Assembly: GCA_021234155.1 (NCBI GenBank)
Contig: JAJEKV010000127.1
Span: 434,001 to 498,000 of the forward strand
Reading direction: 5' to 3'
Length of the DNA stretch: 64,000 bases
DNA from: Isoetes taiwanensis
Lineage: Eukaryota; Streptophyta; Lycopodiopsida; Isoetales; Isoetaceae
Positions 13,261 to 57,451 of the stretch are shown here, piece by piece (the stretch's first letter is position 1; every line of letters starts with the position of its first letter). The notes under the pieces are model-generated. The model did no database searches, was not told where the DNA came from, and was given only the letters and a program-made list of their open reading frames with translations. The translations under genes and the position numbers were made by a program.

Positions 13261-14336
13261 GTAACGATCTCGTTATTGCGCCAAGAGCTCGATCGTCGCT
13301 GTTATATTACGAGCTTCCTTTGTACCCCGGCGCTTCTTAGATCTCTGTCAATTAGGGTTCTTGGATCAAATGCTTTGTATCTCAACTCTTACTCAGCGAT
13401 CACAGGTTTTTATCAGTCGATCTGCATTTCTTTAGCCTTCGTAGATCTGCCTTGATCTTGTTTCTCGCCCAAGAACTTGCGCAACATGGATAAAAATCGG
13501 TTATCTTGAAAACATTCCTCGATATCAGCTGCGGAAATTTATCCTTCAGTAGTTTTTTGGATGCCGTGCAGGATTTTGTAGCCCCTAGGACCAAAAAGCG
13601 GAGGCAGATCTGGTTTCCAGAGCAGCAGTTTGATCTTGGCAATCTTTTTGATGAATTGTAAATTTAGGAGAAGCTACATTTCTGAGTAGACATTCCTGGC
13701 AGAGATCTGTAAAGATTTTATAGGGTACCGAGAAATGTGGTGATCGTATTGTGGAAAAATGCTGGTAATTGCTTCTTCTAGCTCAATGTTTGATACTTAA
13801 TCAATATAGAAAACAAGCATGAAATCCAAATCTCCAAAGTGCAATTCTCTTTTCTGACATGCATTAGTGAGTATTTTGAGGCATCGGAGTTCGTGTAGTA
13901 GGCACTCCGGCCAAGCAGAAGTACATGCATAGCAGACTGTGCTTGAAATTGAAATTTATGTTCTTCCTTTCCGACATTCTGAGGCATGCTTGCCATAGTA
14001 GTAGTATTAGTCATCATTTGAGCCAGAAAGGTAAAGGATTATGCCTTCGAACTGAAAAGAGCTTAAGTTATTTCTTCATATGATCATATTCATCTTCAGC
14101 TGATCTTTTATTAGTTCCGAGGCAGCACTACTCATGTCCGTTTTTATGGTTGCAACAGTAAGCTGCCTTTATTTTTCATGTCTCTGCATTCTAGAACGAA
14201 AACTAGCACTGACTTCGATTTCTGTAGGATCCTGAACAATTAAGTGTACAATAAGCTTGTTTCTGAAGATTGCCCTTTTGTTTACTGAATACACAGAGCC
14301 AGGGGAGGGTATTATGATCTGCAAAGCTTTGAAAAT

Positions 14337-16821
14337 ATGGCGAATCAGAGCGACGGGAACACTATAAACTGGTCGCATTCATCAAATTCAACACATCTTC
14401 CACCTAAGAGCCCAACTCTTACATCTATTCCATATGATTCAACTAACAACGGAAGCTGGGGAGGCTTCCCTACACAAGGGAGCGCATATAACAAACAGCA
14501 GCATCAACGTACAACATCAGCAAGCTTTGCTCATATGCAGGCACCATGGTTAGATCATGATATGGCCGAAACTCCGGCAAAAAAATCCATCCACCATCGC
14601 CGGGCAGCCAGTGATTCTGTGGCATTTCTTGAACCAGCAGGCCAAGGTTCTAATTGCAAGGCTATGTCCCAACATGCAGAAGGCATGGAGTTTGACCGCC
14701 TAGATGATGATCAGCTCATGTCTATGTTTGGGGACATGGGTTCTGTTCATAAGCAGCAAAATCAGAGGTGTGCAAATGGTAATGGGGTTTCTAGCTCAGG
14801 TGCTGACGCCTGCCCATCAGAGAAAAAAACTCCTGGTTCAACTCCTGAAACTCTGTCTACTCCTTCTGATAGTAACAGCGGCAATGAGATGTCTAATGAA
14901 GATGCAAGAGCTGGGGAATTAAATCCTCCTAAGAGTGAACCAGAAGTCCAGAGTACAAATCAAAGTGAAGGCCCTGTTACCAATGTGGTTCCGAAAGCAC
15001 AACCGACTCCCTTTTCAAACCAACTTGATCCCAGTATGGACCCCAAACGAGCAAAACGGTAAGTACATTGCTATATTCTTACAGTGAGGGTAGGGCAAGT
15101 CCTATGAAATAAAATCTCTTAGAAGTAGATAGGGCTTAAAATGTGTTAATGTTGTTGTTTCTGCTTCGGTTTTTGCATAATGCCTAGCATTCTGCAGCTA
15201 ATTTATTATCGTAACAGCGCAATTCTATACTTGGGAAAACTGGAGATCAATCCATTTGCTTACGTCAGGTTGTTACAGGATACTTGCAAATCGGCAATCT
15301 GCACAACGTTCTCGTGTAAGGAAATTGCAATACATAGCTGAACTTGAAAGAAGTGTCAATGCCCTTCAGGTATAAGCACTAGTTTTTGTTATTTATGTAG
15401 GTTTTCTTTAAATCATAGCTATGAACTGCTAACTATGCAACTTTGAAGAGGGAGAACAATCAGAAGAGGAAAATACTCTAATAGGTTCAGTGGTTTTGTA
15501 ATGTAGTTGCTGTATGGAACCAAACCAATTCCTTTTCTGAACCGGTAAAGATGAATTTTCAGAGCTAAACAAGCTTTTTTGAGCACATGTCTGTTGTCAT
15601 GACAGCTCAATGGAGGACATAACTGCGGTCTTCCTGCTGACCAATTAGGAATAGCATTAGCCCACACTCTATTTAGCATTTCTAAGCCGTGACATGATTG
15701 GCTAAAGTTTGCACATTCCACCATTTTGCTGCTGATATGAATATAGAACTCAAGTTGCCATCAATGATGTGCCCCACATGATAGAATTATGACAGTTGCA
15801 CTCCTCACATCATGTGGCCAGGCCAATGTTTAAAGACCTCTTTTCCTCTGCTTATTTTGTTTGTATCCCGCTTGCATCATTTTCTCTATTCCCATCTACA
15901 CAAAACTATTTCTAACTACACCCTGTACTTACAAGTGAGTATAGCCTGAAAGGTACTTGTCAAAGATACTACAGAAAAATTACTGTTTAGTTAGTTTTCT
16001 GGTGGAAGGACCGCAGGCGGATTAACTTTTTTTATGCAGTTCGTGAAACAAGGAACTCAATATTTTATACATTTTTTAACATGGGTATGGATGGGTCCGC
16101 CCCTAGCAGTCTGGAATCACATTCCTAAACAAAAAAAAAGGGGGGGAGAGAAAGGGCTCTCGAAGAAATATCTTCTGTTGAACGCTTACATGTGCCCAAG
16201 TTGGCAGGCATGGTGCTTGAGGGATTAAATAATATTATTTATGCTTTGTTGAAACTGTCTAACTATAAAGGTGAGTTTGCTCCAGCGGTATTTACAGCTG
16301 TTTCCATGGTGAATGATTGCAGGCGGAAGTATCCGCTCTTACACCTCAAGTGGCTTTTCTTGACCACCAGAGAATACTTTTAAATGTGGATAACAACACA
16401 ATGAAGCAAAGAATAGCGTCCCTGATGCAAGATAAAAGATTCAAGGATGGTAAGGAAAGCACAGGCCAGGTTTTGCTTTCAGTCAGAGAAAAAATTTGTT
16501 GGCATTAAGTTATTGTCTTGACATGCAGTCCATAATGAAGCTCTAAGCAAAGAGGTGCAGAGGCTAAGGTTGGTTTATCAGAACCAACAGGAGCATTTAA
16601 GGTCACAACAAATGCAGGTCTCATCTGGGCATTCTGGATTTGATGGGACTCATGTAGATTCTGATAACTTTGGCGTCTTCGTAAAAATGGACTCTTCAAA
16701 TGGTGGATCAAATGGTGCTCTTGAAGATCAGTCTCCTAACATGATAAGTTGCTTAATCACCCCTAATAGCTCCCATACTTCCAACCAAGATGCCCCTTTG
16801 CCATCTGATTTCTATGATTGA
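14337..16821 (+). CDS. Group E bZIP transcription factor (bZIP34/61-like)
   Basis: Nuclear DNA-binding protein of 410 codons in four coding exons: 14337-15058, 15279-15369, 16323-16449 and 16529-16821 (stop 16819-16821). All introns are GT-AG and phases match; the exon lengths sum to a multiple of three. The N-terminal part carries family signatures HHRRAASDSVAFLEP and FDRLDDDQLMSMFGDM and a Ser/Asn-rich acidic stretch. The basic region NRQSAQRSRVRKLQY spans exon 2 (residues about 245-260), with the invariant N-x7-R spacing. The zipper follows across exons 2-4. It contains a proline in SALTPQVAFLDHQ, the residue known in Arabidopsis bZIP34 and bZIP61 to disfavour homodimers. The start is chosen because MANQ opens the conserved N-terminus. 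The 3' end is Ser/Asn-rich. No frameshift is visible, so this is probably a live gene. Relatives act in pollen and lipid-related programmes; the role here is inferred only. Confidence 0.93.
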
Positions 16822-28234: not shown

Positions 28235-29073
28235 TGTTTGGCCCAGCCTGGTTCTGGACCAACACACTATTTAAAGTTCTAGGACAATGGTCGACCTTAA
28301 TTGTTTAAGGCACAATTCAAGCCCTTGTGCAAATTAATGAAAATGCAAACGTAGAATGAGATTCACGACAAAAAGTTGTGTATATGAAAATTGGCACAAA
28401 GTAAATTATTCTTTTCTTTTTGTCCCAAAGCAAGCTGCCTCTCGACCACTAGCCCGCTTTTGTTTCAAGACGATTTTGATATAGAAGCACATGATATTTT
28501 TAGTATATATAATAGCGAATTTGATGAACCAAAGAATCCAACTATTACGCATATTTAATAGACACAACAAAGGTTTGAGACAATCGCAACTTAATATAAC
28601 AAGAGCAAATAAATCCTCACTCAACTCAATATTCAAGAATTATAAGAGATACAATAGGAATTTCTCGCATCATGACAAAGTTTTTATGCGTAAGCCGCAT
28701 CGCCTTGCAAACGGCCTGTGGTTTTCCCTGCCAAATCTCCCTTTATGCTTGCTATGCATCGATATTTTCCTCCGCGATTCCATCCGCACTTTGTAAAAAC
28801 AAGACTTAATCTCCACCATTTGTCTAATTTTTTCCAATCGAACACTTCCTTCCTAAAACGCTGTCAAAGATTCTTTTATGCATGCCTTCCTCACAAATGA
28901 AAATAGGTGAAATAGGCCAATGGTTCGAAAAGGAAGTGGCTAAAAAAATTAAGAAGTGGCTTTCGATAATAAGCATAGGAATTTTTATGGAAAATCCAAA
29001 TATTATGAAAGAAAAGGTTTTTCTTTTGAAGCTGAAACGCAAAAGGGTAAAAATGTTGGCCAGCGGGCCAACA
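28235..29073 (-). repeat. 3' LTR of gag-only element
   Basis: 839-bp copy matching 30881-31692 along its length, with small gaps throughout. In element orientation this is the downstream LTR. The ends in plus orientation are TGTTTGGCC and GGGCCAACA. Confidence 0.85.
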
Positions 29074-30880: not shown

Positions 30881-31692
30881 TGTTTGGCCTCAGCCTGGTT
30901 CTAGACCAACACACTATTTAATGTTCTAGACAATGGTCAGGACCTCCAGAATTGTTTAAGGGCACAATTCAAGCCCTTGTGCAAATTAATGAAAAATGCA
31001 AACGTAATGAGATTCACGGCAAAAGTTGTGTATGCTGAAAATTTGCACAGCCAAATCATTCTTTTCTTTTCTCTGGCAAAGCAAGCTGTCTCTCGACCAC
31101 TAGCCTGCTTGTTTCAAGACGATTTTGATATAGAAGCACATGATATTTTTTGGCATATATAATAGCGAATTTGATGAACCAGCAAATCCAACTGTTACAG
31201 ACATTTAATAGACACAACAAAGGTTTGAGACAACTGCAACCAGAATATAACAAGAGCAAATAAACTCTCACTCATTCAAGAATTAGGAATTTCTGGCATC
31301 ATGACAAAGCTGTGCAAGCGATTGTCTTGCAAACGGCCTGTGTTTTTTTCCTTGCCAAAGCTCCCTTTCATGCTTGCCATGCATCGATATTTTCCTCCAG
31401 ATTCCATCTAGACCCTTTGCCAAAAAACAAGACTCAATCTCCACCATTTGTCGACTTCTTTCCACCGACTTCCTTCCTAAAACGTTGCCGCATTCTTATG
31501 CATGCCTTCTGCCAAAGGAAAACAGGTGAAATAGGCCAATGATTCGAAAAGGAAGTGGCTAAAAAAATTAAGAAGTGGCTTTCGATAATAAGCATAGGAA
31601 TTTTTATGGAAAATCCAAATATTATGAAAGAAAAGGTTTTTCTTTTGAAGCTGAAACGCAAAACGGTAAAAATGTTGGCCAGCGGACCAACA
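30881..31692 (-). repeat. 5' LTR of gag-only element
   Basis: 812-bp upstream LTR in element orientation. It shares termini with the other copy and directly adjoins the primer-binding site. Confidence 0.85.
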
Positions 31693-32251
31693 GTAAGGCA
31701 TGATAGAGGATACTTTAATACTTGTGCAGCTGCTCGGCTAGCGGATTTTCGTCGCTCAAATCTTCTAGATAGCTCCGTGTCTGATCATAATCCACAATTC
31801 CTAACTAATGATGTGGCTAATTGTCATCGACGTACCAGGACCTACTTTAAGTTTAATTGCAAGTACTTGGAGGATGATGAGTTCAAACTTGGCTGTAGTC
31901 GGGCTTGGTCTCGGGCCTTCTCACCTCATAGGGGCATGTCTGGTGTTGTCGCAGCGTTGTCTGCAGTGAAGTCATTTGCAAAAGAATATTGGAGAGTTAG
32001 AGCTGCTGAAGCTAGAGGACTATTGACTGCATTGTACCAGGAATTAGAAGTACTCCGCTACTGCGGGCCATACTAATGGAGTCGGGAGAAAAGGAGTTAT
32101 TATCTCGAATCAAGGCTATAGAACCGCCAAAGCTTACTTAAAGCCAAGGTGAAGGCAGGGGGTTGCGATGGTTCAGGGCGGAGATAGATGTGCTCCGGTT
32201 CTTTTTCTTTGTTGCAAGAAGAAGGAAACTCGCCACTTCTATACATTCTTT
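31693..32251 (+). pseudogene. LINE-A endonuclease end and linker
   Basis: It resumes after the LTR element with ARLADFRRSNLLDSSVSDHN, containing the SDH near the endonuclease C-terminus. It then reads RRTRTYFKFNCKYLEDDEFK and AAEARGLLTALYQELE, typical of the region between endonuclease and reverse transcriptase. The frame runs to FFFVARRRKLATSIHS and is cut at TCTTT by the TRIM. It continues directly at 33425. Confidence 0.8.
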
Positions 32252-32428
32252 TGTTGGAATGTTGGAGCATGTGTAATGGGCATACATGAAGAATGACTCA
32301 GTGGAAGAGTGCCGAAAGCCCATCAAAGGGCCGGTAGCTCAGTGGTAGAGTGCTTGGCTTGCAAGCAAGTGGTCCTGGGTTCGATTCCCAGCCTGTCCAC
32401 CCAATCATAAAAGGCTCATTTCTCAACA
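32252..32428 (+). repeat. TRIM 5' LTR
   Basis: 177 bp, TG...CA. It contains an extra D-arm-like piece GACTCAGTGGAAGAGTGC at about 32295-32312 ahead of the full tRNA-like sequence. Confidence 0.95.
32328..32399 (+). other. tRNA-Ala(TGC)-like sequence with A and B boxes inside LTR
   Basis: 72 nt that fold as a tRNA. The D arm is TAGCTCAGTGGTAGAG at 32335-32350, overlapping a canonical A box. The anticodon loop is CTTGCAA with anticodon TGC at 32360-32362. The T arm holds GGTTCGATTCC at 32378-32388, a perfect B box. Acceptor and anticodon stems each have a mismatch (C-U and G-G), so a working tRNA is unlikely. An internal Pol III promoter is plausible. The copy in the 3' LTR is split by a MITE between anticodon-loop and T-arm sequence. 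Confidence 0.85.
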
Positions 32429-32440
32429 TGGTATCAGAGC
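32429..32440 (+). promoter_or_regulatory. TRIM primer-binding site (initiator tRNA-Met)
   Basis: TGGTATCAGAGC directly abuts the 5' LTR. It is the standard plant copia/TRIM primer-binding site, complementary to the 3' end of initiator tRNA-Met. Confidence 0.95.
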
Positions 32441-32476
32441 CATGGTCCCAAGTAAAGGGTGCTTAACCGCACCGGG

Positions 32477-32912
32477 ATAGTCCCCAGTGGTGTAGGGGTG
32501 AGAATGAGCAAAGGGATAGTCCCCAGTGGTGTAGGGGTGAGAATGAGCAAAGCTTGGCGGTGGAAAGCCCAACTCCCTTGATGGTGGGGTGCTTAACCGC
32601 ACCGGGATAGTCCCCAATGGTGTAGGGGTGAGAATGAGCAAAGGGATAGTCCCCAGTGGTGTAGGGGTGAGAATGAGCAAAGCTTGGCCAGTGGAAAGCC
32701 CAACTCCCGCAGTGGTGGAGTTGCCCGAGGAGGGGAGCTTGTGGATTGTGGTAGGCTGGAATGGATTGGTGAGCAAAGGGATAGTCCCCAGTGGTGTAGG
32801 GGTGAGAATGAGCAAAGCTTGGCCAGTGGAAAGCCCAACTCCCGCAGTGGTGGAGTTGCCCGAGGAGGGGAGCTTGTGGATTGTGGTAGGCTGGAATGGA
32901 TTGGTGTGCCCA
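32477..32912 (+). repeat. TRIM interior: five copies of a 39-bp unit
   Basis: A unit beginning GGGATAGTCCCCAGTGGTGT and ending GAATGAGCAAA occurs five times. The last two sit in a larger tandem copy of about 136 bp that also includes CTTGGCCAGTGGAAAGCCCA. The repeats make apparent ORFs on both strands, which I regard as artefacts. Confidence 0.9.
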
Positions 32913-32923
32913 TTAAGGGGGAA
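32913..32923 (+). promoter_or_regulatory. TRIM polypurine tract
   Basis: AAGGGGGAA directly before the 3' LTR, where plus-strand priming is expected. Confidence 0.75.
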
Positions 32924-33424
32924 TGTTGGAATGTTGGAGCATGTGTAATGGGCATACATGAAGAATGACTCAGTGGAAGAGTGCCGAAAGCCCATCAAAA
33001 GGCCGGTATCTCAGTGGTAGAGTACTTGCCTTGCAGGGTAAAAGCATGTTAGGGTGTCCCTTAAAAAGTATTATTTAGTGACTAAAAAAGTACCTAAAAG
33101 GTACCAGGATTTGGAGTCTTTGGGTAATTGTAATATCTCAATAAAAGTTACATTTTAGAACTTTTATATATATTTTGGTCTCCGGTAGCATTATCTTTAT
33201 CTTAACTTTGAATATTAATGTGTCCTTGACTTTTATTTTGGACCTTTGTACTAGTTTTAAGGAAAATAAAAATGAGAAAGTACCCAGTTCTGAAGTACCT
33301 AGTGTATGTACTTTTGCAGGTTCCAAAAGTGGTACACCCTAACATGCTTTTACCCTGCAAGCAAGTGGTCCTGGGTTCGATTCCCAACCTGTCCACCTAA
33401 TCATAGAAGGCTCATTTCTCAACA
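32924..33424 (+). repeat. TRIM 3' LTR, split by a MITE
   Basis: Matches the 5' LTR over 177 bp in two blocks either side of 33036-33355. The tRNA-like part is interrupted at TGCA. It ends CAACA followed by the TCTTT duplication. Confidence 0.93.
33036..33355. mobile_element. MITE copy B, TSD TGCA
   Basis: 320-bp element with perfect 22-bp inverted ends starting GGGTAAAAGCATGTTAGGGT. It is flanked by TGCA at 33032-33035 and 33356-33359. Removing it together with one TGCA restores the 177-bp LTR. AT-rich interior, no transposase. Confidence 0.93.
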
Positions 33425-36258
33425 TCTTTGGTGTTGCCAGATGGCGCTCTTATCTCCGATCCGGTGAATCTTAAGCAGTATCTTCATCATCACTTTTCTT
33501 CATTCTTTGCACGACACCCATTGCCCTTTCAGAAGGACATGCAATTGGCCGTGTTGATCAAGGTGCGTCGCATTGTTTCTGAAGAGCAGAGGTTGCTTCT
33601 TGAGTCCAATATCATGAAGGAGGACTTAAAAACAGCTGTGGCTCTCTTGAAAAGGGATAAATGCCCTGGTCTTGATGGCTTTCCTATTGAATTCTTTTAG
33701 AAGTGTTGGGACTGGTTGGAGGATAACATATATGATGCCTTTTGTGAGTTTCAGAGATTTAGGAGCCTTGATAAGATTTTGAATATAGGTTGTATCTCTC
33801 TCATTCCAAAGAGCAAGGAACCCAAGACGATTTCTGACTGGCGACCTATTACATTGCTTTCCTCTGTGTACAAGATCTTTGTTAAGACATTGGCAGAAAG
33901 AGTCTGAGACATCTTGGCTGATGCTATCTCGTCAACACAATCTGGTTTTCTCCCTCGTCGTTGTATTCTCAACAATGTGGCTGCTGCATATGAAGGAATA
34001 TATTGGGCCCGGTTACAGGGTCATAGAGCAGTGTATCTTAAGCTTGATTTTGCTAAAGCTTACGATAGTGTTGATTGGGGTTTCTTGGAGAAGTGTCTTC
34101 TTGCACTTGGATTTGGGGAATCATTCACAAGGAATGTCATGAAGCTCCATACATCAGCCAGATCTACTGTCCTTTTCCAGGGCGAGCCATCTGATATTTT
34201 TGTAGCGGGTAGAGGAATTCGGCAAGGCTGTCCCTTAGCACCCTTGCTTTTCACAATTGTTGCAGAAGTATTATCCCAGCTCTTCTCCGTGGCTACCCAA
34301 GATGGCATTATTCAAGGCCTGGGCAAAAGTATGCTAGTGGGTATCAAAAAAACGCGGCCCCAGCACTTAGATCAGCACCCTGGATGTACTATTCTATCAT
34401 AGTATTCCACTTGTTATTAGTTGGAGTTGTTACATATTTCTATTGATTACCTAATTACCATCTGCTAGTACCAGTAACACCTTAAACAAGCTGCCATATG
34501 GGGTGCTATATCTTTGTCACAAGATGTGGGCCTTTGCTTTTGATACCCACCAGCATACTTTTGCCCGCCTCCCAATGGACGATGGTTCTCAAGAGGTATG
34601 TAACCAATATGCCGATGACACTTTTTTGTTCCTAATTGCCGAGGCTGAGAATCTTCGTAATGCTAAGCTGTTATTAGACACATTCTCCTTAGCATCAGGA
34701 GTTCTTGTAGGGTGGCAAAAATGTACAGCTTTGTGGACGTTGGACAGTCCCATCCCTCCCTGTATTTTGGACTATCCATAGAAGATTCTTCTGCATGGCA
34801 ATACCACAAAGTTGCTTGGTATCCCGCTTGGAATTCACGTCTCGCTCGAGATGCTTGGGATGAAATCATTAGTGGGTTGCAAAAGCATTTGTTTTGGTGG
34901 AATCTGACTAAACCGGTCCATGCCCTAGAGAATCACGTGGCTAAATGTGTTCTTAGTAATACTCATGTCTACATGGCGTCGCTCTATTGGCTCATGATGT
35001 AAGATGGAGGAGATTGTGCGTATCGTCAGAAATTTTATTTGGGGTGGAAATGAGTTAGGAGCGGTGGTCAAGGTAGCTTGGGCGAAATGCATTAGATCTA
35101 AGGCAGCTGGTGGTCTTGGTATGTTGGATTTTCACCTCCAAAGCAAGGTGATGATATCAAAGTTTATTTGGAGGATTTTCATTGGTAAGGATGATTCTCC
35201 TAGCCTGAAGTTGTTGGTGCAGTCGATTCAGCGTTGTCTCCCATTTCATAAGGCCACCATTAACCCCCCCTCCTTCCTTGGGCTTTGCTTTATCATATGC
35301 ATCCGTATTATTGGGACATTGTCAGGTCTCTTTTCCATATTAATCCCGAGGCATGTCTTCAGTTATCCACTCCATGCTGGTGGATTCCTTTGCAGGACAC
35401 TCCAGAGAATGTGCCTCTAAGTGTGGTTGTTCATCCAAAGACACAATGATGATGGATAGCAGCTGGTATAAGCACTATTGCAGCTTGGTATAAGTCTGGT
35501 CATCTCATGTCATGGGAAGCATTTAGAACAAAGTTCTTGTTATACAGATGGGACAGAGTAATCTGGAATCATATTGCTGCATTGTTGCCACAGGATTCTG
35601 GTCCACATCGTATGGGGTTGCCATCAGGATATCCAGCCAGGGCGGTTTGTGTCTTCTGTGTATAAACTGCTTGTGCATTCTGAAATCCTGCCTCCATCCA
35701 ATAGGTGGCATCTTCAGGTCCCTCAGCCACAATGGAAAAGTGTTTGGATATCGATATGGGATAAGCTGCTTCATCCCAAAGTAGTAGTTTTGTGGTGGCA
35801 AGTGATCCATAGATGCCTCAAAGTCAACAGGTTGGTCCATAAAATGGATAATCGGATTTCAGAGCTCTATCCTTTATGCCTGCAAAGGGTTGAGAGTATT
35901 GAGCATTGTTTTTTCTTGTGTGAGCGGCTTCGGCAGGCATGGTCTTGGTTGTTGACCCTATTTGGCACGTCTCGATCTAGCCAGCAAATTTTGCTTGCTA
36001 TCTATCCTGATGCTTGGCCCAATCTTTAAGGGCGTAGATACTGCAGATGAGATTGTTCTTCAGTGGGCGCAAAATAAAATTGTTATGGCTTACAATTGTT
36101 CTTCTCTTGATCAAGAGAAGAAAGTACTGATCTGGCATACTTACCTTCAGATTCATTCTTTTGCATATGCAGGTGGTTATGCTCAGTTGGATCGGTTTGT
36201 CCACTGGGGTTATAATCCTGTCTTTGCATTTTATGTTGCTCTAGTTCTTACTTGGTGA
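33425..36258 (+). pseudogene. LINE-A reverse transcriptase and zinc-finger region
   Basis: It continues from 32251. A linker (KQYLHHHFSSFFA) leads to thumb-side motifs (CPGLDGFPIEFF; SDWRPITLL). The catalytic LDFAKAYDSVDWG lies near 34045-34080 and GIRQGCPLAPLLF near 34215-34250. The YADD box (QYADDTFLFL) lies at about 34610, after a MITE at 34321-34566. The C-terminal zinc finger CLQRVESIEHCFFLC lies near 35880-35925. Stops (for example near 33700 and 33906) and several shifts break the ORF. Reverse transcriptase normally copies the LINE RNA at the nicked target. The pattern is that of the plant L1 clade. Confidence 0.88.
34321..34566. mobile_element. MITE copy C, TSD GCCT
   Basis: 246 bp, starting GGGCAAAAGTATGCTAGTGG and ending in its near-perfect inverse complement over 29 bp. 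It is flanked by GCCT at 34317-34320 and 34567-34570. Removing it restores the LINE-A protein frame across IIQGLPMDDGSQEV, just ahead of YADD. No ORF. Confidence 0.92.
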
Positions 36259-38832: not shown

Positions 38833-38862
38833 AGGACAAGGTTATTACATGAAGATCGGTTC

Positions 38863-39952
38863 TTGCAGTTACGTCGACTCTGCGGAGAATACCTAGTAGA
38901 TAGAAATTCAAGAGTTGAGGATGCCCACCTAAATTATTTTAAAACAACGGCATTCTGCAATAGAAGAATACAGTATGACGAGGACTATTCCGAACACGAT
39001 AACGATGATGAAAATGACATTATCTTATCTGCATCGTTCTTGGGTTGTAAAAGATGGTGTTCGGTACAAGTAGCAGACGCATTAGCACTCTCAAGGGCAA
39101 AAGGTCGTCCTACCCTATTTATTACGATGACGACAAACACAGATTGGCCCGAGATACGAACTGCACTTAGGCCAGGACAAAATGCATCTAATGCTTCCAT
39201 GATCGTAGTTCGGTGTTTCCACAATAGACTACAACGACTAAAAGACTTGCTACAAAAATTCTTTCAATGTATATCATATATGATACATGTTGTAGAGTTC
39301 CAAAAATGAGGATTGCCCCACGCTCACCTTGTGCTGTGCACAAAACCTGATATACGGATCGATTGTATCGATGAGATCATTTCTGCTGAGCTGCCATCGG
39401 ATCCAGTCCTTCGAGCCCAAGTACAAAAGTTCATGATTCATAGGCACACAGAGAGATGTTCTTCTAACAACTCTTCCTATTGTTACAACTTCCCAAAGCC
39501 CGTGAATCCCACGACATATCTCGATTCGAGAGATTATGTACAATATAGAAGAAGAAATGCAGATGAGATGTGGGTAGTCCCGTACAATGCGTTCTTGCTC
39601 CATGAGCTAGATTGCCATATCACCATATCAACGTTGGTTCGATAGTGCCAACTTTCGAGTAACACAAGATAATGAGTCTGCAGGTCAATCTTCATCAAGA
39701 AATAGTCAATCAACTCAATACATGTCATGTACTTCGTTAGCAAATGAAGGGCTAGGAATAGAAACGTCTAGAGATTCTTTCAAAAATATATCACCGGATA
39801 AACCTACAAGACCAAATGCTAGGAATGAAATACGGGACTACGTGAATGGATGGTATCTGTCTGCCATGGAGGCATCGTGGAGAATAATGTCCTATCATAT
39901 AACAGATAAATCGCCATCCGTCAGATGTCTCCCACTACACCTACGGTTATAA
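38863..39952 (+). pseudogene. Helitron Rep (HUH nickase), tyrosine motif deleted
   Basis: It contains GRPTLFITMTTNTDWPEI (Rep motif 1 region), then after a stop PHAHLVLCT, where the HxH of the HUH nickase is seen. WVVPYNAFLLHELDCHITI follows. The expected segment with the two catalytic tyrosines (the KYxxKYxYKG block) is absent. The sequence jumps near 39640 to FRVTQDNESAG and on to EIRDYVNGWYLSAMEASWRI. Without the tyrosines no nicking is possible. Confidence 0.82.
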
Positions 39953-40095: not shown

Positions 40096-41917
40096 ATGAG
40101 AAACATTGTCAAGAAGAGATCTATGCAACCGATTATATGTAGCATACGTTTATTATTACCTCGGGTTGGTGAAGCATTTTATTTAAGACAAATCCTAATA
40201 CATCGGCCTGTAAGAACATGGGATGAAATCAAAATCGTAAATAATTTGGAACATGAAACTTATCGACAAGCTGAAGAAGCACATGGACTACTTGCAGCAT
40301 GTAACGAGGCAACGCTGATTATGGAAGAAGCAACATCGTTGTCTCTAAGTCCCACACAACTACGATTTTTATTTGCAATAGTATTACTTGATCAAGCACC
40401 AGCACTCGAGATATGGAGTAGATTCCGAATACCGATGAGCATTGACTTGCTAGACCATGAATACTCAAATGATGAAACAGTTGCATTTAACGAATCACTC
40501 CACCTAATCAATAATATATTGATTTAGCATGGCACTAACATCGTAGCCTTCGGATTACAATTGCACGCTCGTCTCGTAAGAGATGTAATGCATGAGTTAT
40601 CTACGTTTGCCGATCATGGAGCTTATTTAGAATCTGTAGCAGAGATGTCAAGCGCAATGAATGCTAATCAATTAGAAGTATATACTTATATACGAGACGA
40701 GATAAAACAGATACAGAGCAAGCAACCAATATTTGTAAATGGCAAGGCTGGTATAGGAAAAATGTATGTTCTTAATTGTATATGTTTATTGATACGCGGG
40801 AACAAGGATATAGTGCTTCCATGGGGAACAACAGCACTTGCAGCTCTTCAATACCCAGGAGGTCGAACTGCTCACTCGCTTTTTTTAATACCAGTTGTAG
40901 AATAGGCCTACATTCATTATTAGAACGGGATCCAGGAGCCGCTGAACTTCTTATTGTAGCAAAAACGATAATTTGGGATGAATTCCCAATGGCTAGTAAA
41001 GCAGTTATAGAGAGTCTACACAACCTCTTGCAACAGTTGTGAAAAAATAGTTCTCCCTTTGGAGCAAAACACTTCATAGCTTCTGGAGATTTTAGGCAAG
41101 TAGCACCTGTCGTTAAGGGCAGCACGAAATGCGGGTGATCCTGAGCTGATGCAGTATGTCGATAATATAGGAGAAAACTGGCAGGAATCGACAGTTTCAT
41201 TAGACATGTTTAACACAACTACCAAAATTGCAGACGCAGAAGACTTTCTGTATCCGTCTAACATCTTGAAGAATCCAAGCCAATGTGAGAAACGAGCATT
41301 CCTGTCTCCTATCAACAAGCACGTCAAAGATTTCAACGAGCATACGCTAGACAAAGTGTGCAACAGAAGTAAGAAATATTATAGCCACGATCACATCAGT
41401 GAACAAGATGAAATCATGTACGACCACCCTTATGCAACGTCAGATTTTTTGAACAATTTCACGCATTCTGGCATCCCCGAACACGAACTGAATCTTAAAG
41501 TAGGAGCAATATGCCACGTTATGAAACGACTTGACACAGAAAAAGGTCTAGTAAAGAATGCAAGAGTCATGATCACATCAATGCATGATAAGTTCGTAAT
41601 GGTAAAAGTACTAGGGTCAACAATGCACATATCCTATTTCGAGAATTGACTTCTTTTACCAACCAGAAAATAGACCATAGACCATCCACAGACGCCAGCT
41701 ACCATTGCGACTAGCATATTCCACCACCTTCAATAGCTGCCAAGGATTAACGTTGGACCGTGTTGTCCTTGATTTACGTACAAATATCTTTGCACACGGT
41801 CAATTATACACAGCCCTCACACGCATACGAAAGAGGGAAGATGTACTCATCCTCCTATCTTCGGATGACACAGCAAAACATACCGCAAATGGCGTCTACA
41901 AAGAACTACTTTGCTAA
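40096..41917 (+). pseudogene. Helitron Pif1-type helicase
   Basis: Frames at 40096-40527, 40561-40905, 40905-41042, 41149-41649 and 41705-41917 follow a Pif1 helicase. The order is QLEVYTYIRDEI, Walker A as NGKAGIGKMYVL, DEFPMASKAVIESL (motif II), a middle domain, and FNSCQGLTLDRVVLDL with YTALTRIRKREDVLIL (motifs V-VI). In Walker A the Thr/Ser after the Lys is Met and GTGK reads GIGK, so ATP binding is probably lost. Confidence 0.88.

Positions 41918-48544: not shown

Positions 48545-48695
<151 letters not shown>

Positions 48696-57311: not shown

Positions 57312-57451
<140 letters not shown>

Follow-up and report, generated by a model that had tools for sequence, protein, structure and literature searches.

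The closest described counterparts of the element reported here are TRIMs bearing a tRNA-derived sequence in their LTRs, which were named Helenus by Kojima in 2024 (PMC10886601). In the available part of that account, Helenus elements range from 311 to 1263 bp, fungal and plant Helenus have a 5-bp target site duplication (TSD), and the only plant listed is Selaginella moellendorffii, with an LTR of 120 bp and an interior of 85 bp. Most fungal Helenus elements are described there as priming at tRNA anticodon loops, Helenus-derived tRNA-Ala-TGC predictions are recorded for a rust fungus, and Pol III transcription is unproven for published Helenus too (PMC10886601). Two other groups carry LTR promoters derived from small RNAs, as far as the accessible text goes: Cassandra, whose LTRs contain 5S rRNA sequence as well as Pol III terminators (PMC7215508), and the 5S-derived Ajax TRIMs, given for nemerteans only (PMC10886601). 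The main text of a 2016 survey of plant TRIMs contained zero occurrences of ‘tRNA’ (PMC4717578), and the matches listed in the open-access literature included no further description of a plant TRIM that bears a tRNA.

The window, i.e. the whole stretch of Isoetes taiwanensis DNA that was analysed, is 64,000 nucleotides long. Positions 32252–33424 of it are a TRIM, a non-coding miniature LTR retrotransposon, inserted in a LINE, with the following features:

32247–32251, no strand: left copy of the TSD TCTTT, a perfect pair with the right copy
32252–32428, plus strand: 5′ LTR, TGTTG...CAACA, 177 bp, multi-copy in the genome
32294–32312, plus strand: degenerate second D-arm/A-box-like piece, 16/19 identical to 32335–32353
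32324–32326, plus strand: CAA triplet, a possible start site, at −4 to −2 of the tRNA-like part
32328–32399, plus strand: tRNA-Ala(TGC)-like sequence (Rfam RF00005, 63.4 bits; ARAGORN span 32328–32401)
32335–32345, plus strand: A box TAGCTCAGTGG of the 5′ LTR
32378–32388, plus strand: B box GGTTCGATTCC of the 5′ LTR
32429–32440, plus strand: primer-binding site (PBS) TGGTATCAGAGC, directly after the 5′ LTR, its string identical to the Cassandra PBS as printed (PMC7215508)
32474–32906, plus strand: expanded internal domain with tandem repeats of 39 bp and 135 bp
32915–32923, plus strand: polypurine tract (PPT) AAGGGGGAA, just before the 3′ LTR
32924–33424, plus strand: 3′ LTR, 177 bp plus a 324-bp insertion, 501 bp in all; A box mutated, B box intact
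33032–33355, no strand: AT-rich 324-bp insertion with a TGCA duplication at its edges
33425–33429, no strand: right copy of the TSD TCTTT
33908–34402, plus strand: downstream reverse transcriptase (Pfam RVT_1, E = 2e-14) of the LINE that was the insertion target of the TRIM

The perfect TCTTT duplication, the PBS, the purine tract and the extra D-arm-like piece upstream, all part of the original prediction for this locus, were each located. We take the PBS to be of the initiator-Met type, of the standard 3′-end class. Two 177-bp LTRs had also been claimed, which held for the 5′ LTR and not for the 3′ LTR, whose length is 501 bp because the 324-bp insertion interrupts its tRNA-like part. Likewise, of the A and B boxes ascribed to each LTR, both were found in the 5′ LTR, whereas the A box of the 3′ LTR (TATCTCAGTGG) fails the consensus through one change, leaving only the B box intact in a tRNA-like part that the insertion splits in the anticodon loop. 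The insertion has 31-nt inverted arms (97% complementary) and is MITE-like. The LTR pair differed at 7 of 177 positions, all inside 32328–32410; five of these lay in the tRNA-like part (p = 0.098 in a clustering test) and the first 76 bases were free of them (p = 0.018). When the LINE flanks were joined through a single TSD, one frame ran through the junction uninterrupted by a stop. The interior of this copy is unusually long, enlarged by its tandem repeats, over which one 195-aa minus-strand frame extends; a 20-mer of the internal repeat had 0 matches in viral contigs and 0 in a collection of other genome contigs, as expected for a plant element. The element in the window belongs to a Helenus-type TRIM family, of which it is an older and damaged copy.

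Several further features were observed elsewhere in the window. Direct repeats at 28235–29073 and 30881–31692 (85% identity) surround an ORF on the minus strand that matches a CCHC zinc knuckle, an arrangement that looks like another degraded LTR element. A degraded Helitron at 38833–39309 and 41104–41649 comprises a Helitron helicase-like N-terminal domain (E = 2e-21) and a Pif1 2B domain. Beside the TRIM, exons of a plant-type bZIP transcription factor occupy 14289–16821 (bZIP_1, E = 2.7e-07), presumably of the land-plant group E type, and long CT/GA microsatellites lie at 48548–48692 and 57314–57448.

The assembly searched comprised 1.658 Gb in 1110 contigs. A genome search with the LTR, the check proposed alongside the original prediction, gave 500 candidates, of which 40 were scored, a sample biased towards the window copy; 31 loci fetched from places other than the window yielded 50 near-complete LTRs, those most like the window's. 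These loci consisted of 17 with two LTRs, 13 with a single LTR and one tandem array (L019) in which three LTRs alternate with internal domains, as known for Cassandra. Perfect 5-bp TSDs were present in all 17 two-LTR loci; because L009 and L025 have their flanks in common, these loci represent 16 independent insertions. The two-LTR copies were short, with TG...CA ends (531–557 bp in 15 of 17, and 696–697 bp in L009 and L025; coding content was examined in the window copy only), the exact PBS was found in 15 of 17, and AAGGGGGAA or a similar purine stretch preceded their 3′ LTR. Differences between paired LTRs ranged from 0 to 6 of 177 positions, with zero in six of the 15 measurable two-LTR loci; the six copies with identical LTRs indicate that the family moved recently. 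A perfect TSD marked 6 of the 13 single-LTR loci as solo LTRs, while the seven others, cut or partial elements among them, had none. Altogether, the family has hundreds of LTR copies in the 1.66-Gb assembly.

The Isoetes family thus agrees with the structural definition of Helenus: it is a short non-coding LTR element with tRNA-derived A- and B-box sequence in the LTRs, a PBS and a PPT, solo LTRs and a 5-bp TSD, and its length falls inside the published range. It differs in its LTR of 177 bp and usual interior of ~193 bp, compared with 120 and 85 bp in Selaginella moellendorffii, and in a PBS that we take to be of the standard 3′-end initiator-Met class, unlike the anticodon-loop priming of most fungal Helenus. 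The Selaginella moellendorffii genome is far smaller than 1.66 Gb. On the grounds of LTR length and genome size, we therefore consider the Isoetes elements a different family, set apart by the available descriptions. With Cassandra, as far as it is described in the accessible text, the family has in common a Pol III-type promoter inside the LTR, the PBS TGGTATCAGAGC and tandem arrays, yet it carries a tRNA-like sequence and two-LTR copies free of T4 runs where Cassandra has 5S rRNA sequence and Pol III terminators (PMC7215508). Ajax resembles it in its small-RNA-derived LTR promoter, which there is 5S-derived, and tRNA-derived SINEs resemble it in their tRNA-like Pol III head, whereas in the present elements LTRs, PBS, PPT and 5-bp TSDs demonstrate movement of integrase type. 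In reading the locus as a TRIM with a tRNA-like promoter in its LTR, parallel to Cassandra, the original prediction was structurally right; its presumption of novelty did not survive, the same design having already been published as Helenus (PMC10886601).

The similarity of positions 32328–32399 to tRNA is far beyond chance (Rfam tRNA, E = 2.1e-11 in the window), and the score of 63.4 bits lies within the range of 43.7–72.6 bits spanned by 63 scored tRNA matches in the genome, family copies among them. ARAGORN called the window sequence a tRNA-Ala with anticodon TGC and a good cloverleaf. The acceptor stem contains a G3-U70 pair, an alanine identity element, together with a C5-U68 mismatch, and the anticodon stem contains a G-G mismatch. 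The best-ranked phage matches were to tRNA-Ala and tRNA-Lys (73–77%) and the best-ranked E. coli matches to tRNA-Lys and tRNA-Thr (77–79%, ~80% of the query covered), which show tRNA likeness only and no origin. The string CATCAA was present in 48 of the 50 LTRs most like the window's. CAA triplets no more than 10 bases upstream of plant tRNA genes are given as start sites, found in about 36–45% of these genes, in the available text of PMC11700998, and because of this proportion we count the CAA upstream of the tRNA-like part as weak evidence. CCCATCAAA and CCCAATCATAAA, beside the tRNA-like part, were not significant as an old duplication (p = 0.14 in shuffles, 0.055 in a window control), and on these values the idea that a tRNA or SINE had entered the LTR and left a duplication behind was rejected. 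Three copies (L072, L099 and L069) had altered D-loop or acceptor regions (e.g. AGCTCGAGCTGGTAGAG) with the remaining LTR well kept, possibly through rearrangement or conversion within the tRNA-like part. Many tRNA matches were also seen on one contig of the assembly (C1101, 1–178 kb), which may derive from an organelle or represent a tRNA cluster.

Preservation of the promoter boxes was assessed in three samples. Among the 50 LTRs most like the window's, ARAGORN called tRNA-Ala(TGC) in 47, and the A box was intact in 48, the B box in 46 and both in 44. The strict B-box pattern GGTTCGANTCC matched 0 of these 50 other LTRs, and the window's GGTTCGATTCC was thus not seen elsewhere in the sample; GGTTCGATCCC was present in 45 of them. 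A U3-only query, independent of the tRNA-like part, gave 433 candidates, of which 40 were scored and 30 loci cut; it produced 22 distinct LTRs, counting the split 3′ LTR of the window, with the A box in 19 and the B box in 16 cases, and one LTR of this sample ended inside the tRNA-like part, replaced by unrelated sequence. Finally, a pattern for the junction of LTR end and PBS, likewise independent of the tRNA-like part, with up to two mismatches occurred at 293 places genome-wide (control 0), with 71 exact junctions among the 100 matches listed. From these, a junction sample of 50 was drawn (40 exact, as 30 loci returned and 10 picked, and 10 with one mismatch; none with two), one of which, L116 (one mismatch), proved to be a different LTR element. 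ARAGORN called a tRNA in 35 of the 50 junction loci, and at the expected place the A box was found in 35, the B box in 37 and both in 26 (38 for the A box counted anywhere, and 29 for both on that count). The boxes are therefore not decayed in most copies, a possibility that the original prediction had raised against itself: both remain in place in almost every young LTR of the samples and at roughly half of the loci in the wider sample, many older copies having lost one.

The alternative that survives best is a Pol II-transcribed TRIM with a captured tRNA or SINE head, mobilised by Copia from Pol II RNA, in which the tRNA-like part is a functionless passenger. We regard this as possible, though rather doubtful. 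It agrees with the conservation tests, which gave no support for selection on the boxes or the tRNA-like part, neither of which surpassed the remaining LTR in conservation. Across 52 distinct LTRs (61 copies), changes per site were 0.81 in the tRNA-like part, 0.80 in U3 and 1.64 in the A box (p = 0.19); in 39 junction copies with well-matching 5′ ends they were 1.57, 1.39 and 1.91, respectively, and 1.64 in the B box (p = 0.59). All 50 junction copies gave p = 0.010, an effect that disappeared after dropping 11 copies with poor 5′ ends and the first 14 columns, and shared variants were not rarer in the tRNA-like part (p = 0.64 in Fisher's test). Against a passenger stand the 44 LTRs with both boxes intact in the sample of 50 closest to the window's, and the window copy, which outside the 324-bp insertion has neither a TATA[AT]A nor an AATAAA signal.

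The terminator data also bear on this alternative. T4 terminators were absent from the sample of 50 LTRs closest to the window's and from all 17 two-LTR copies, in whose flanks T4 density was 6.3 per kb, and a promoter of Pol III type with no terminator is in keeping with a passenger. As these copies are close relatives, their lack of T4 is in effect one observation, and for the window copy minus its insertion the absence was unremarkable against shuffles (fraction with zero, 0.49). T4 occurred within the last 177 bases in 6 of 50 junction-sample stretches, one of the six being the non-member L116. Avoidance of T4 was rejected in view of the kinship of the copies, the shuffles and these six stretches. 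The T4-free two-LTR copies mean that Pol III could read the whole element, with no standard stop in the 3′ LTR, and Pol III transcription from the LTR is no more than plausible.

The best overall explanation, and in our view probably the correct one, is a Helenus-type TRIM family with a Pol III-started RNA, initiator-Met priming and Copia enzymes acting in trans. TFIIIC and Pol III would use the boxes of the 5′ LTR, starting the RNA near the CAA at 32324, and Pol III would traverse the body of the element, where T is scarce and no T4 run occurs, and continue into the 3′ LTR and beyond it. Initiator-Met tRNA at the PBS would prime minus-strand synthesis, and strong-stop DNA would be transferred to the matching sequence of the 3′ LTR. 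Because strand transfer needs only repeated sequence in the 3′ LTR, run-on RNA at the 3′ end would be harmless and read-through RNA usable as a template. Reverse transcriptase and integrase would be supplied in trans by a Ty1/Copia element, as the LTR, PBS, PPT and a TSD of 5 bp suggest. A Copia element of the same genome (L116/L120) has an LTR ending in CAACA followed by the same PBS (CAACA, then TGGTATCAGAGCC), with ~13–23 bases in common with the TRIM, and behind its PBS are matches to the domains Copia gag, GAG-pre-integrase, retroviral polymerase SH3-like and integrase core (the last with E = 1.9e-05, below its curated cut-off). No longer homology was found between this element and the TRIM interior, and we consider it a candidate for the partner class, not a proven partner.

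A genuine tRNA-Ala gene flanked by a retrotransposon by chance is highly improbable: the good cloverleaf with its TGC anticodon speaks for it, but the sequence lies inside the mobile unit, with the TSDs outside the LTRs, and recurs hundreds of times, by which it is refuted as a general explanation. Even less credence can be given to a private event in which a tRNA or SINE entered a single LTR of a single copy. Copies free of the tRNA-like part, which the original prediction had named as the observation that would overturn it, were not found among the junction-selected loci: the tRNA-like part was matched at 49 of 50 (at three of the 49 only partly), the fiftieth being the different element L116, and a private insertion is thereby refuted. 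A 25-mer of the tRNA-like part occurred at 349 places and one of U3 at 350 (controls 0), totals for places not paired one to one, which fit a tRNA-like part that is confined to the LTR and not abundant on its own elsewhere. A retrozyme or Cassandra relative, with which the size class and, for Cassandra as printed, the PBS string are common, is equally far-fetched, as in the Rfam scan of the window tRNA alone reached its gathering score, other matches staying below theirs and no hammerhead or 5S family attaining it.

Returning to the Pol III-started, Copia-mobilised TRIM family, a bolder extension can be offered only tentatively, and we would not expect it to hold in full: Pol III may make the genomic RNA of this plant TRIM lineage from an internal tRNA-Ala-type promoter, and the lineage, unlike Cassandra, may itself carry no terminator. 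It would then depend on transcripts that run on into the neighbouring DNA and on strand transfer within the 3′ LTR, while it scatters TFIIIC sites and tRNA-Ala-like genes by the hundred across a genome of 1.66 Gb.

These results add a second plant to the hosts of Helenus-type TRIMs; its family comprises hundreds of LTR copies, solo LTRs and a tandem array among them, and has moved recently. Predictions of tRNA-Ala(TGC) in the Isoetes taiwanensis genome will be too numerous, since copies of the transposon score as real tRNA genes do, and the family offers a system for direct measurement of Pol III use by an LTR retrotransposon.
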